Shown: in pieces, positions 689 through 11,209 of the stretch
Layout of the letters: every line of letters begins with the position of its first letter
Position numbering within the stretch: the first letter of the stretch is position 1
Virus record (IMG/VR): IMGVR_UViG_3300042691_013741
Location: 1-22,586 of that record
Length of the DNA: 22,586 nt
DNA from: a virus
Direction: 5' to 3' (one strand)
Program-made: the position numbers and the translations under genes
Notes under the pieces: generated by a model
Seen by the model: only the letters and a program-made list of their open reading frames with translations
Database searches by the model: none
What the model was told of the DNA's origin: nothing

Positions 689-2086
689 TCAGTGATGCAC
701 ACTAGGCTGTATTTCGTCAAGTAAAGTCCGAAACGCCAAAGCAGCCGTTGCCGGCACAACGCCATTGCCCAACAGCCTCAACTCGTCTACGCGGGAGTCA
801 CAGGAGACGCACAACTCGGCATCGTCCAGCCCACTGGAAGGCCCATCAGGGTCTCCACCCAACGTGGGTTGAGTTTGCCGTTGTTCTTGTTGCTGTTCAG
901 TGCTTGTCCCGTCAGCGTGTCCTCTGGCTTCCCGTCCGCTAGTCTGGCTTGGTTCATCATCCAGTCCATTGCATCTTTCGTTCGAGGTGTTGCCCATGCT
1001 TTGATCTGGCTGTGCAGCGTGTCCGGCTTCCCCCTGTGCGCTCCACTGTCCATCTCCGCCCTGGGCGTTGCCCATAAAGTCACTTGGTGCTGTAACATCA
1101 CTTGCCGCTTTGTCCTCTTGTCCTCCGCCCCCGATGTCGTTTGCCCTCCGTTTGGAGGACGAGGTGTCGCCCAAGCCTTCGCCTGCATCGTTAGACTCAC
1201 ATGGCAATGCTCGCCCCTGTCTGCATTCCTCGACACAAAGTTCGCGTCCGCTGCTGGCTCGTTTGCTCTTGGAGTCAGCCACAGTTCTGGGTGGCTCCCA
1301 TGCGTGCTGTGGTTCTCCGGGCCGGCTTGGCCAAACACAATCACCGCCTCGTCCAGCCTGCTGTTGTAACCCTCCGGCGTCACTCTGCTCGCGCAGGCAC
1401 CTTTGTAGTCCCTCTGGGATGGGGTCGGCCAAACTATTACAGACTCCCGCAATTGTGTTCCTTTTTCCCGATTCAGTCTTTCTGGCCTCGGGTCGGGATT
1501 GTAGCAGTCGGTTGTCTGAGCAGTGGGCCAATTTCGCGTAGATAAACACTCGCTTGCGCTGGTGGCTCGCACCGCATTCAGACGCACTGAATACGCCTGC
1601 CGTTGCCTTGTAACCCACACGCTCCAGCTCCCGGAGGACATGGAGCAGAACAGGCGTTCCTGCCGGGTCGTTCCAGTGGTCTCCAACGAGTTTGCTGGAG
1701 ATGATTCCTTCAACATTTTCAAGGAAAACAACGGAAGGTCGGCACTGTCTAATTCCCTCCAGAATGTGAGGGAAGAGGTGTCTGGCGTCTTCGTCTCCGG
1801 CTCGCTTGCCGGCACTGGAGAATGGCTGGCACGGGAACCCGCCAGTGAGGATGTCCACCAGCCCAGAAAACTCTTTCCAAGGGAAGGACTTGAGATCGCT
1901 CCAGATCGGAGCCGCATCAAGTTGCCCGCCTTCCATTCTCGCAAGTAAGTTTTCGCAGGCGAAGGCTTCGATCTCCGCATAAGCGACTGTGCGCAGATTC
2001 GGGAGCACTCGCCTGAGTCCAAGGTCAATGCCTCCGTATCCTGAGCAAAGGCTGATATGAGTGATTTCGGTAGTATCCACATTCAT
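689..2086 (-). CDS. dcm: DNA (cytosine-5) methyltransferase
   Basis: A 465-residue C5-cytosine DNA methyltransferase that would modify phage (and perhaps host) DNA, probably to escape restriction. Motif I is SLCSGYGGIDLG (residues 12-23), the catalytic PC motif is GGFPCQPFSSAGKR (Cys86), motif VI is ENVEG (123-127) and motif VIII is QRKRVFIYA (176-184). The closing motif IX/X region is LRLLGNGVVPATAALAF, near residues 437-453. The 230 or so residues between motif VIII and the end, the target-recognition region, are low in complexity. They repeat a short pattern (LADP, VADSKSKR, LGDTSSSKR, MGNAQ, MGNTSNER) and overlap a second long open frame. The start overlaps the upstream stop (ATGA) and has GAGGA a few bases before it. 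Target specificity cannot be read from sequence. Confidence 0.95.
   Translation of the reverse strand: MNVDTTEITHISLCSGYGGIDLGLRRVLPNLRTVAYAEIEAFACENLLARMEGGQLDAAPIWSDLKSFPWKEFSGLVDILTGGFPCQPFSSAGKRAGDEDARHLFPHILEGIRQCRPSVVFLENVEGIISSKLVGDHWNDPAGTPVLLHVLRELERVGYKATAGVFSASECGASHQRKRVFIYAKLAHCSDNRLLQSRPEARKTESGKRNTIAGVCNSLADPIPEGLQRCLREQSDAGGLQQQAGRGGDCVWPSRPGEPQHAWEPPRTVADSKSKRASSGRELCVEECRQGRALPCESNDAGEGLGDTSSSKRRANDIGGGGQEDKAASDVTAPSDFMGNAQGGDGQWSAQGEAGHAAQPDQSMGNTSNERCNGLDDEPSQTSGREARGHADGTSTEQQQEQRQTQPTLGGDPDGPSSGLDDAELCVSCDSRVDELRLLGNGVVPATAALAFRTLLDEIQPSVHH
787..2082 (-). CDS. Overlapping second-frame ORF inside the methyltransferase gene
   Basis: A 431-codon open frame in a shifted register, starting at an ATG 4 nt after the dcm ATG, so both could use the same GAGGA site. 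Its first half looks like a frame shadow of the conserved methyltransferase motifs. Its second half does not: it repeats WPTP/WLTPR/WATPR units (for example at about 1420, 1275, 1165, 1065 and 990) and ends with LNPRWVETLMGLPVGWT (about 822-875), followed by a short tail. To my recollection such WPTP repeats and an LNPxWVExLMGxPxGWT ending occur in phage proteins annotated as cytosine methyltransferase-like. It may be a true overprinted protein, or the alternative C-terminus of a frameshifted methyltransferase product. Expression is not proven. Confidence 0.45.
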   Translation of the reverse strand: MWILPKSLISAFAQDTEALTLDSGECSRICAQSLMRRSKPSPAKTYLREWKAGNLMRLRSGAISSPSLGKSFLGWWTSSLAGSRASHSPVPASEPETKTPDTSSLTFWRELDSADLPLFSLKMLKESSPANSLETTGTTRQERLFCSMSSGSWSVWVTRQRQAYSVRLNAVRATSASECLSTRNWPTAQTTDCYNPDPRPERLNREKGTQLRESVIVWPTPSQRDYKGACASRVTPEGYNSRLDEAVIVFGQAGPENHSTHGSHPELWLTPRANEPAADANFVSRNADRGEHCHVSLTMQAKAWATPRPPNGGQTTSGAEDKRTKRQVMLQHQVTLWATPRAEMDSGAHRGKPDTLHSQIKAWATPRTKDAMDWMMNQARLADGKPEDTLTGQALNSNKNNGKLNPRWVETLMGLPVGWTMPSCASPVTPA

Positions 2087-2259
2087 TTGTCCTCGTTGAT
2101 TGCGTCAAGGTCCTCCTGTGTCCACCCCTCGCGGCGCATCTGTTGTTCCAGTGCTGCCGCCTTGGCCTGTGCCCGTAGAAGTCGATTATTTGACTCCTGC
2201 AATTGCATTTTGAGTGACTCAATCAAAAACTGGTTTTCTAGGCGTTCAATAGGTGTCAT
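2083..2259 (-). CDS. Small coiled-coil protein
   Basis: A 58-residue protein of unknown function. The start is taken at the ATG at 2259 because GGAGGAGGGGG lies just upstream. An earlier in-frame ATG at 2277 overlaps that ribosome binding site and would give an unlikely MGGGGT leader. The start also overlaps the preceding gene's stop (ATGA), and its own stop overlaps the dcm start in the same way, so the three genes are translationally coupled. The sequence is rich in Leu, Gln, Glu and Arg with heptad-like spacing (LENQFLIESLKMQLQ, then LLRAQAKAAALEQQ), consistent with a single coiled coil. It resembles small phage scaffold-like or accessory peptides, but no family can be named. Confidence 0.75.
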   Translation of the reverse strand: MTPIERLENQFLIESLKMQLQESNNRLLRAQAKAAALEQQMRREGWTQEDLDAINEDK

Positions 2260-8445: not shown

Positions 8446-10634
8446 TAGAAAAGGCTCGGTTGAGCTTCAATGTTGCGAAGGTTTGTCACTGCATGTTCTG
8501 CGTAGCTTTTTTTCAATTCTGAGCCGACAAACTTCCTGCCAAGCGTCAACGCGCCGTAGCCTTCAGATCCAATGCCGGTAAACGGTGAGTAAACTAGATC
8601 GCCCGGATTACTCCAAAGCGTAATGGCTCGCTCGATCACGTCGAGCTGTAGCGGGCAAATGTGCTTTTCGTCTGCCTGATCTCGCGCCACCTCTCCGTTC
8701 AAAACGCGCCCTTGATCGACTGTCATCCAGACAGGAGATGCCACTTCCTGCCACCAAGAGACTGGAAACTCTGATCCGTCTTTTGTCACTGGGACAACCG
8801 TCTGCCCTGGTGCTCGGAAAACTAGCAGATAGTCAGCGCAGCCGACTCGCGAACTGGAGGAGTCGGTTTTGAGCGTCTTGTGCAGGAGGCCGTGCGCCTT
8901 TGTGCGCTGCATCTCTGTCACCGGACTCTTCCAGATGCAGATGCGAGAGTGAAACAGGAAATCATGCTTCCAAAATGCTCGGATAATTTCGCCGCTGAAA
9001 TCCTGAAACTGGATGGATCCCGTCTTCCACTTAGTCGAAAGCAAATCCACACAATGCACCGCCACTTCACGCCCAGGCTGCATGATCCGTTTTATTTCCT
9101 GGATCAGGAAATCAAAGTGCACCATGAAGTCTGCCATTGAGTCACAGTTTCCCATGTCTTGCGGGTCGTTTGAGTAGGTGAAAAGGTCAGCAAAAGGCGG
9201 GCTGAAAACTGAAAAGTCAATCGAGCCCGTCGGGATCATCTTGGCAACTCGGACACAGTCGCCGTGGTGCACTGTCCAATTCTTGCCTGAATAACTGTCC
9301 ACCCCTGTCTTTGCTTCCACTGTCTCGGACTTCTGAAAAGTCATTTCTGCTGCTGCTAGTTTCATGTTCTCTTGCATTTTCTCATGTTGCTCAATTTTGC
9401 GTCTGATTGATTGAAGGATGGCTCCTTCCGTCTTTGCCTGCACGATGTAGGCGTTCACCTCTTGCGTTTGCCCAAACCTGTAGGAGCGTCTGAGAGCTTG
9501 GTAGAAGTCCTCAAACGAGTAGGAAAGCCCGACAAACGCCACGTTGCGGCAGTGCTGCCAGTTTAAGCCAAACCCAGCAATGCTCGGCTTGGTAATAATT
9601 ACGCGAGCCCGCCCTTGGCTAAAATCACTCAGCAACGTTTCCTTGCGCGTTGATGTGTCAGAGCCCCGGACTTCAATTGCATCTGGTATGCGCTGCGCCA
9701 GGTTGTCTGCCTCGTCGTTCGTGTTACACCAGACAATCCAAGGTTCGCTTGATCCATTCACGAGATTTGCCACCGCATTGGATCGGTCTGCCGAGGTCAT
9801 GCGCATTTCGCGGTGCATCGTCGTCGCTGATAGCGTGGCAATGCGAAACAAGTCCTCCCCAGTGTTTGTGCTGATGTCAGCGTCCACCAGAATTGTTTGC
9901 ATGTTAAGTGCTGGCAGATCGTACCCAGCGTTTTCAAAGCCAATGTCAGACGGCTTTGAAACGCACGCGGCCCAACTCGCGAGCCATTTCCAAAACTCAC
10001 TCTCAGCGTGCTTTTTGAGCCGCCAGTCCCCAGTGTTGAACGTGTCGTTCACGAAGAACGTCGCCAGCATCTGAGCAGGCGAGCAGATCCCGAGAAAATC
10101 AGCGTGCTGCCCGAGTTCGGTGTAGTCGTTCGGTGATGGGGTCGCGGTACATGCGAGCCTATAGGGAGTCTGCGAAAAAGCATCTGTCAGTGCTTTTCTT
10201 GTCTTGCCTGTAAAGGATTTAAGGATGCTGCTCTCGTCCAAAACTACCCCGGCAAACACTGAACAGTCAAAATGCTCCAGCTTCTCGTAGTTCGTGATCC
10301 AGACTCCTGGTGCGGTGATTTCGTCGCCGCTGGCAATCTGATTTGCTTCGATTCCAAACTTCTGCGCTTCCCGTGCAGTTTGAGAAGCAACAGCCAACGG
10401 AGTAAGAATAAGCACGCTGCCGCCAGTATGTCGCACAACCTGGCTCGCCCATTCAAGCTGTTGAGCGGTCTTGCCAAGTCCGCAGTCCTCAAACAGTGCG
10501 CAACGGCCCTTCCTGACGGCCCATCGCACGATGTGCGCTTGCCAGTCAAACAGTGGAGCGATGATTGGCAGAGGTTCAAAACCGGCGTCCCGCACGGTCT
10601 TTTGCTTGCCTGTGATGTAGTCGTCGTAGGTCAT
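8445..10634 (-). CDS. SNF2-type helicase fused to N4/N6 DNA methyltransferase
   Basis: A 729-residue fusion. Residues 28-420 are an SF2 helicase of SNF2 type: Walker A EDCGLGKT (49-56), a DESS box (133-136), ACTATPSPND (161-170) and a C-terminal QALRRSYRFGQ (379-389). Residues 450-729 are a permuted, beta-class N4-cytosine or N6-adenine methyltransferase: catalytic SPPF (478-481) comes before the SAM-binding SPFTGIGSEG (683-692). No endonuclease motif is seen. The start at 10634 is set by GAGAGGA and an ATGA overlap; the frame extends to 10892, but that part is inside the zinc-protein gene. The helicase may move along DNA while the methylase modifies it. Phage P1 DarB also joins methylase and helicase, in the opposite order. 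Confidence 0.88.
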   Translation of the reverse strand: MTYDDYITGKQKTVRDAGFEPLPIIAPLFDWQAHIVRWAVRKGRCALFEDCGLGKTAQQLEWASQVVRHTGGSVLILTPLAVASQTAREAQKFGIEANQIASGDEITAPGVWITNYEKLEHFDCSVFAGVVLDESSILKSFTGKTRKALTDAFSQTPYRLACTATPSPNDYTELGQHADFLGICSPAQMLATFFVNDTFNTGDWRLKKHAESEFWKWLASWAACVSKPSDIGFENAGYDLPALNMQTILVDADISTNTGEDLFRIATLSATTMHREMRMTSADRSNAVANLVNGSSEPWIVWCNTNDEADNLAQRIPDAIEVRGSDTSTRKETLLSDFSQGRARVIITKPSIAGFGLNWQHCRNVAFVGLSYSFEDFYQALRRSYRFGQTQEVNAYIVQAKTEGAILQSIRRKIEQHEKMQENMKLAAAEMTFQKSETVEAKTGVDSYSGKNWTVHHGDCVRVAKMIPTGSIDFSVFSPPFADLFTYSNDPQDMGNCDSMADFMVHFDFLIQEIKRIMQPGREVAVHCVDLLSTKWKTGSIQFQDFSGEIIRAFWKHDFLFHSRICIWKSPVTEMQRTKAHGLLHKTLKTDSSSSRVGCADYLLVFRAPGQTVVPVTKDGSEFPVSWWQEVASPVWMTVDQGRVLNGEVARDQADEKHICPLQLDVIERAITLWSNPGDLVYSPFTGIGSEGYGALTLGRKFVGSELKKSYAEHAVTNLRNIEAQPSLF

Positions 10635-11209
10635 TTGGTTTTCCTCTCCGCGTTCCTGATTGCCCGGTATTCTTTGGAGCACTCCGGGCTGCATGCTTTG
10701 GCGATACCGCTGCCGGAGGGTCGCACTGGCTTGATCTGGTGGCAGATAATGCACTCGGCCATCTTTGGTAGGCTTTTGGTGTAGGTGTGCTGCGCCTTGA
10801 AGCTGGCGACCTGCATCGCTTGGCTGCAAATCCGCGAGCAGCAAACCTTTTTGCGGTCTGCCGGGCGGAACTCCTTCTGGCAGTTTTTGCATGGCTTAAT
10901 CGGAATCCGGCAGATCTCGCACTTGGTGAGCGTCCTCTTGTGCCGCTCAAATGTCACGCCGCACTCGCAGCACTGCGTAGTCTGCCAAGGTGCCAGCGGA
11001 CCACGCTTAATGATTGGCACTGGCACTAGGCCAGCGGGGTCGGGCCGTTTGATTAAGCCCTGGCGGATTGCCGCAGCAACTAGCGCAGGCATCTCTGCCA
11101 GCTCTGGCTTAAGCACGTTTTCGGCAAGTGTGCCCAGTCGGGCCATGTAGCACTTTTGGTGCCGGTGTGGCGCCGAGTAATACGGCGCGCCGTTCATGAG
11201 TCCGCTCAT
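10631..11209 (-). CDS. Cysteine-rich zinc-binding protein
   Basis: A 192-residue protein with three clusters of paired cysteines, probable zinc ribbons: Cys81/Cys83 with Cys97/Cys100, Cys107/Cys110 with Cys123-128, and Cys153/Cys156 with Cys173/Cys177. Short loops rich in Lys and Arg lie between them. The N-terminal 70 residues are a separate helical part ending PVPIIKRGPLAPW. The function is unknown; zinc ribbons of this type often bind nucleic acid, and some belong to HNH nucleases, but no HNH catalytic triad is evident. Its stop overlaps the start of the helicase-methyltransferase, so the two may act together. It follows a small membrane protein with an ATGA overlap. Confidence 0.75.
   Translation of the reverse strand: MSGLMNGAPYYSAPHRHQKCYMARLGTLAENVLKPELAEMPALVAAAIRQGLIKRPDPAGLVPVPIIKRGPLAPWQTTQCCECGVTFERHKRTLTKCEICRIPIKPCKNCQKEFRPADRKKVCCSRICSQAMQVASFKAQHTYTKSLPKMAECIICHQIKPVRPSGSGIAKACSPECSKEYRAIRNAERKTK

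Follow-up and report, generated by a model that had tools for sequence, protein, structure and literature searches.

The usual role of phage methyltransferases is a protective, anti-restriction one. Multispecific phage C5-cytosine methyltransferases of the SPR and phi3T type carry several consecutive recognition modules, located between motifs VIII and IX. In M.EcoHK31I, the beta polypeptide is reportedly encoded in another frame inside the alpha gene. M.EcoHK31I (YGGCCR) is a two-polypeptide C5 methyltransferase whose large subunit carries motifs I–VIII and X and the predicted target-recognition domain, and whose small subunit carries motif IX only (PMC3404938). M.AquI also consists of two polypeptides, and its small one has part of the recognition region together with motif IX (PMC3404938). 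Finally, the record of Paenibacillus phage Diva lists a "g49 internal gene" within its methyltransferase, in the +1 frame, which matches phrog_1008 at 1e-73.

Here we analyzed a viral DNA stretch of 22,586 nucleotides (the window), in which a previous reading of the sequence alone had reported two long open frames in one methyltransferase gene. Both frames were present where that reading had placed them. We refer to them as frame a and frame b; they share 1296 nt, corresponding to 93% of a. The features of the locus are as follows:

689-2086, minus strand: frame a, C5-cytosine methyltransferase, proposed alpha subunit; 465 aa, motifs I–VIII and X.
787-2082, minus strand: frame b, proposed beta subunit (target recognition and motif IX); 431 aa, +1 frame of a.
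2078-2094, minus strand: shared ribosome-binding site and overlapping starts; GAGGA, a-ATG 2086-2084, b-ATG 2082-2080, a-frame GTG 2080-2078.
1544-2053, minus strand: catalytic motifs I–VIII of a (SLCSGYGG ... GGFPCQPF ... ENVEG ... QRKRVF), from Pfam and invariant columns in 35 relatives.
1540-1635, minus strand: conserved helix of b, residues 150-181 (W153, V157, R161, Y164, R167), read over the motif VIII region of a.
874-1530, minus strand: cassette region, six W[PLA]T[PA] units in b; a is an unconserved open linker there.
823-873, minus strand: putative motif IX equivalent of b, LNPRWVETLMGLPVGWT, from hhalign to M.HhaI and phrog_1008 profile positions 245-279; near-invariant.
752-775, minus strand: motif X of a, LLGNGVVP, directly 3' of the b stop, from the phrog_1008 profile; invariant in relatives.

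Frame a contains the catalytic motifs I–VIII of a C5-cytosine methyltransferase, including PCQ and ENV, whose columns were invariant in the 35 relatives. Pfam DNA_methylase matched it at 3e-34 over aa 9-195 only, and its C-terminal end matched motif X (phrog_1008 profile positions 292-320). Between the catalytic domain and motif X, a had no Pfam match. Motif IX was not seen in a when the sequence was read by eye, and the cassette region of a is poorly conserved; this chain thus does not combine motif IX with a target-recognition domain. Frame b had no match in Pfam or NCBIfam, and a PDB sequence search with b returned nothing. The family phrog_1008, which bears the name DNA methyltransferase, matched three stretches of it at 1.5e-17 (1.2e-7 for the tail); this significant profile match covers the cassette region and motif IX and places b in this family. 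No homologue of the N-terminal third of b was found outside the overlap arrangement.

The sequence-only reading had also held that b ends in a motif of phage methyltransferase-like proteins and that a closes with its own normal motif just beyond; LNPRWVETLMGLPVGWT was indeed found at 873-823, and LLGNGVVP at 775-752, after the b stop. In b, shuffled W-x-T-P cassettes are followed by GKLNPRWVETLMGLPVGWT, which aligns with motif IX. When b was compared with M.HhaI by hhalign, only residues 398-420 (NKNNGKLNPRWVETLMGLPVGWT) were paired, at motif IX of M.HhaI (268-290), although weakly (E 0.03). In the phrog_1008 alignment, the tail of b occupies positions 245-279 and motif X of a-type proteins about 292-321; gene 83 of mycobacteriophage Maminiaina holds both pieces in one frame (109-321). 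The cross-frame distance from motif IX to motif X had a median of 34.7 codons at 112 loci, as compared with 29-33 in single chains. By sequence comparison, b carries a motif IX-like element and a has no recognisable one. As in an M.EcoHK31I-like split, motifs I–VIII and X lie on one polypeptide, and the second, b, holds the putative motif IX at the sequence level only, its structural placement being of low confidence.

Structure models were then compared with this assignment. Modeled alone from 87 aligned sequences, b was poorly predicted (mean pLDDT 53.6, pTM 0.25) except for part of the helix at 150-181 (residues 150-170, pLDDT about 93) and the motif IX helix. A chimera joining the a half and the b half of a relative (L008) reached a pTM of 0.49, with a confident catalytic half and unfolded cassettes. 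This model, which carries the a-frame catalytic half, superposed on M.HhaI with Z 16.9 and an rmsd of 2.9 Å over 164 residues. In the best alignment, the last matched pair was model residue 323 and HhaI 281, a position within motif IX that keeps the register of the sequence alignment, but this placement is suggestive only, because the pLDDT of that helix is below 50. As a prediction, the chimera confirms the a half only.

From these and the following observations, we consider it very probable that the locus encodes a two-subunit C5-cytosine DNA methyltransferase, alpha (a) and beta (b), with overlapping frames and starts. Frame a would be the catalytic alpha subunit with motifs I–VIII and X (cofactor binding, the PCQ nucleophile loop and ENV), and b would be the beta subunit, supplying tandem W-x-T-P cassettes as target-recognition modules and the missing motif IX. 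A single Shine-Dalgarno sequence would load ribosomes that initiate at either start, a few nucleotides apart, giving two proteins per message, which would assemble into the active enzyme. We infer the separate initiation, the alpha/beta assembly and the role of the cassettes as DNA-recognition modules, as well as the protection of phage DNA from host restriction.

The start region of the window reads GAGGAcaaATGAATGTGG. As had been claimed, both starts lie behind one GAGGA (cGAGGAcaaATGAATGTGG), with the b ATG 4 nt after the a ATG. An a-frame GTG overlaps the b ATG in the window, and the a ATG overlaps the stop of an upstream open frame (ATGA). Among 110 relatives, 44 have no a-frame ATG near the start and only a GTG overlapping the b ATG (ATGTG), and another 30 have an ATG in both frames, with the sequence ATGACATGG. 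The start ATG of b is kept in relatives while a reads N, H or D there. Two closely spaced starts behind one ribosome-binding site suggest one message with two products.

In the catalytic half, frame a dominates, with mismatches of 0.27/0.20/0.43 at its codon positions 1/2/3. Selection on b in this half was evaluated with 12 sequences below 75% nucleotide identity: column conservation of b was 0.605 against 0.458 (sd 0.007) under the synonymous null, and b had 0 stops where 44 were expected. R161 of b is invariant where position 162 of a varies (T/A/S), and where position 6 of a varies (T/P/A), b nearly always has P. The strength of selection in the N half is less certain than that in the C half, because shared descent inflates the N-terminal test.

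These data bear on a different reading of the locus, in which ribosomes past motif VIII of a change to b by programmed +1 frameshifting, so that the catalytic half is fused to the cassettes and motif IX in one protein. In its favour are the collinearity of the two parts, their existence as a fused single chain in actinophages and the preserved spacing to motif X. However, a mid-gene shift needs neither the strongly conserved b ATG at the gene start nor the b-specific conservation of the N half, and the fused product would be without motif X. Given the conserved start of b, the selection on its N-terminal part and its extension past a in two relatives (L019 and L126), a frameshift that swaps the target-recognition half, which the sequence-only reading had offered beside overprinting, is not favoured, and we regard it as unlikely.

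In the window, the repeated DNA motif described earlier was found in six copies, read in both frames as had been proposed:

1519-1530, minus strand: motif copy 1, WPTA in b and LAH in a.
1420-1431, minus strand: motif copy 2, WPTP in b and LADP in a.
1270-1281, minus strand: motif copy 3, WLTP in b and VADS in a.
1162-1173, minus strand: motif copy 4, WATP in b and LGDT in a.
1063-1074, minus strand: motif copy 5, WATP in b and MGNA in a.
985-996, minus strand: motif copy 6, WATP in b and MGNT in a.

The strict form, TGGSCVACNCC, has four occurrences inside the gene and one outside it, whereas 0.47 would be expected for the whole window. For 94 pairs of homologous cassettes, mismatches in the cassette half were 0.156/0.130/0.403 at codon positions 1/2/3 of b, and mean identity was 0.82 in b as against 0.55 in a. 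Therefore, b is the coding frame in this half and a is the passenger. Frame a is nevertheless held open there, with 18 stops in 100 genes against 693 expected if only b mattered. At fourfold sites of a, 0.17 differed in the overlap (a301-430) as compared with 0.61 past the b stop. Selection maintains both frames, acting on each mainly in its own half.

Strong selection on b in the cassette half, together with the ability of b to run beyond a (L019, L126), would also fit a real protein unrelated to the methyltransferase reaction, such as an anti-restriction or DNA-binding protein that overprints the gene. We find this improbable: a is without motif IX, b has a look-alike at the right distance from motif X, and single-chain homologues hold both parts.

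Relatives of the locus were collected by several routes. A search of viral contigs with b gave 34 loci and an independent search with a gave 18; nearly all loci fetched by a alone showed similarity to b, most of them over its full length. A profile scan yielded at least 517 relatives (517 confirmed among the first 600 viral stretches) as well as 11 bacterial contigs, the best four of which were Verrucomicrobia, with b present from the start onward. Phage records searched for DNA similar to the C-terminal half gave no match, and a plasmid search gave one Paenibacillus record only. As a null model, synonymous codons of a were shuffled and stops in frame b were counted. For the window gene alone, b had 0 stops against a mean of 5.9 in shuffles (P about 0.001). 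Among 38 genes (the window and relatives), b was without a stop in 36, where about 6 stops were expected in each; the third frame of the same 38 genes, used as a control, behaved as the shuffle null predicts. In the two exceptions (L002 and L014), b stops ahead of a long extra region of a.

The sequence-only reading had proposed aligning homologous genes and comparing conservation per frame, and had named, among the outcomes that would make b a chance shadow, homologues keeping only one frame open and absence of the C-terminal motif of b from close relatives. Instead, b was kept open and under selection, running from its start to near the end of a in 111 of 141 fetched loci, and its C-terminal motif was near-invariant. 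Stop-free b across relatives, the codon-shuffle nulls and the b-type codon pattern strongly support overprinting. A chance or composition-driven shadow of a, for which solely the lack of a Pfam or NCBIfam match to b would speak, retains a negligible probability, being refuted by the shuffle nulls and the codon-position evidence as well as opposed by the third-frame control and the invariant b residues where a varies. A constraint on the DNA alone (sites of recombination, or exchange directed by the TGGSCVACNCC motif) in place of a b protein is rejected with the same near-certainty on codon-position evidence: although the motif is repeated and cassettes starting at it are exchanged, cassette substitutions fall at b third positions and b identity is far above that of a, and such a constraint is disfavoured because it would not follow the codon periodicity of b.

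To return to the proposed two-subunit enzyme, the cassette units begin with W[P/A/L]TP, are mostly about 25-55 residues long and fill the second half of b. A given unit recurs in other phages at other places, beside other neighbours; the cassettes are modular and shuffled among phages. In L019 (3001-4890) and L126, b extends about 580 nt and 340 nt past the a stop, respectively, and the extension contains another cassette and a second motif IX of the LNPRWVE-LMGLPVGW type, so b units exist free of a. The earlier proposal that target recognition lies in the second frame finds support, with the cassettes as the predicted recognition modules. A further, evenly balanced proposal is that the second frame holds exchangeable target-recognition cassettes, which recombination at the W-x-T-P DNA motif would swap to change the restriction sites protected, every cassette keeping both frames open. 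According to this proposal, the N-terminal extension of b would be a new protein born by overprinting the catalytic domain, with both subunits starting at one ribosome-loading site.

Other phages show related layouts. Mycobacterium phage Cornucopia and Gordonia phage Neville encode the complete enzyme in one frame, the matching motif and motif X among its parts, and Citrobacter phage Miller and Streptococcus phage MM1 have an ordinary in-frame motif IX and no b. The motif lies in the +1 frame in Escherichia coli phage Bas73, Erwinia phage Gungnir39, Pseudomonas phage 5371 and Vibrio phage 1.091.O; in the Bas73 methyltransferase, this frame has WPTP and LNPAHSRWLMGYPPEW. Genes 84 and 83 of Maminiaina (L065, MN234200.1, 1501-2530) look like a natural AquI-type split: motifs I–VIII lie in one gene, and the gene that follows, which overlaps it in the +1 frame, has LPTP cassettes and motifs IX and X.

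These extant forms suggest an order of origin, running from one chain through the Maminiaina form to the window type. A single chain, as in Cornucopia, would first have changed frame downstream of motif VIII and become two overlapping genes, the second of which held motifs IX and X, as in Maminiaina; a second frame change would then have put motif X back in the first frame. In b the cassette half and in a the catalytic half would be the old parts, and each would have grown a younger overlapping extension.

Several variant forms were also observed. In L002, L014 and L117, b stops early, closing with a variant motif (such as LNPRWVCVLMNLPVFWVKP), and a has about 190 extra residues ahead of motif X. 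In L022 (3001-3744), b changes from its usual N-terminal part to a cysteine/histidine-rich sequence, HNH-endonuclease-like as judged by eye, that replaces the cassettes, and a stays open to motif X. In L015, L021 and L134, a ends early and b continues for 400-800 nt; these early ends may be single indels, in-gene frame switches or metagenome assembly errors. Gp46 of Acidovorax phage Alfacinha1 (L061, OP131590.1, 934-2067), annotated as a cytosine-specific methyltransferase, is b, and the catalytic frame is another. Elsewhere in the window, most of the length of an 815-aa protein (8448-10892, minus strand) is matched by phage DNA helicases and its C-terminal third by DNA methyltransferases (phrog_67, phrog_498), which reflects either a fusion or a family-naming effect.

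A double reading of about 430 same-strand codons, with selection on both products, would be unusually long for an overlap in a DNA phage. The arrangement is widespread (more than 500 viral stretches in one scan) and is missed by gene callers, which retain one frame. Should b be the recognition subunit, half of the enzyme has been missing from studies of many phage "orphan methyltransferases", and the array of cassettes would lend itself readily to testing how phages change their methylation targets.

The suggestion that such a gene may be undescribed holds in part. M.EcoHK31I has motif IX on a second polypeptide (PMC3404938), and therefore the principle has precedent; Diva, moreover, lists an internal gene. 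A literature search, which left subscription papers mostly outside its reach, returned no description of an alternative-frame phage methyltransferase, a full-length overlap, overlapping starts or a cassette array. The window type resembles M.EcoHK31I in having motifs I–VIII and X on one polypeptide and motif IX on the second, but differs in that its second frame covers 93% of the gene, starts 4 nt after a, bears an array of cassettes and is found in phages; moreover, the cassettes lie in b, whereas M.EcoHK31I has its predicted recognition domain on the large subunit. M.AquI is likewise a split C5 methyltransferase whose small polypeptide holds part of the recognition region and motif IX, but its motif X is on that small subunit, whereas here it is on the catalytic subunit; the gene 84/gene 83 pair of Maminiaina is closer to the AquI layout than the window type is. 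The internal gene of Diva and b both match phrog_1008, but b of Diva spans the inner and C-terminal part only, whereas that of the window begins at the gene start. As in the SPR and phi3T type, putative recognition modules stand in series, yet those modules share one frame and chain and the array here lies in a second frame. The novel points are the near-complete overlap, the starts that are shared and overlap, the second-frame array of shuffled cassettes and the wide, unannotated spread among phages.
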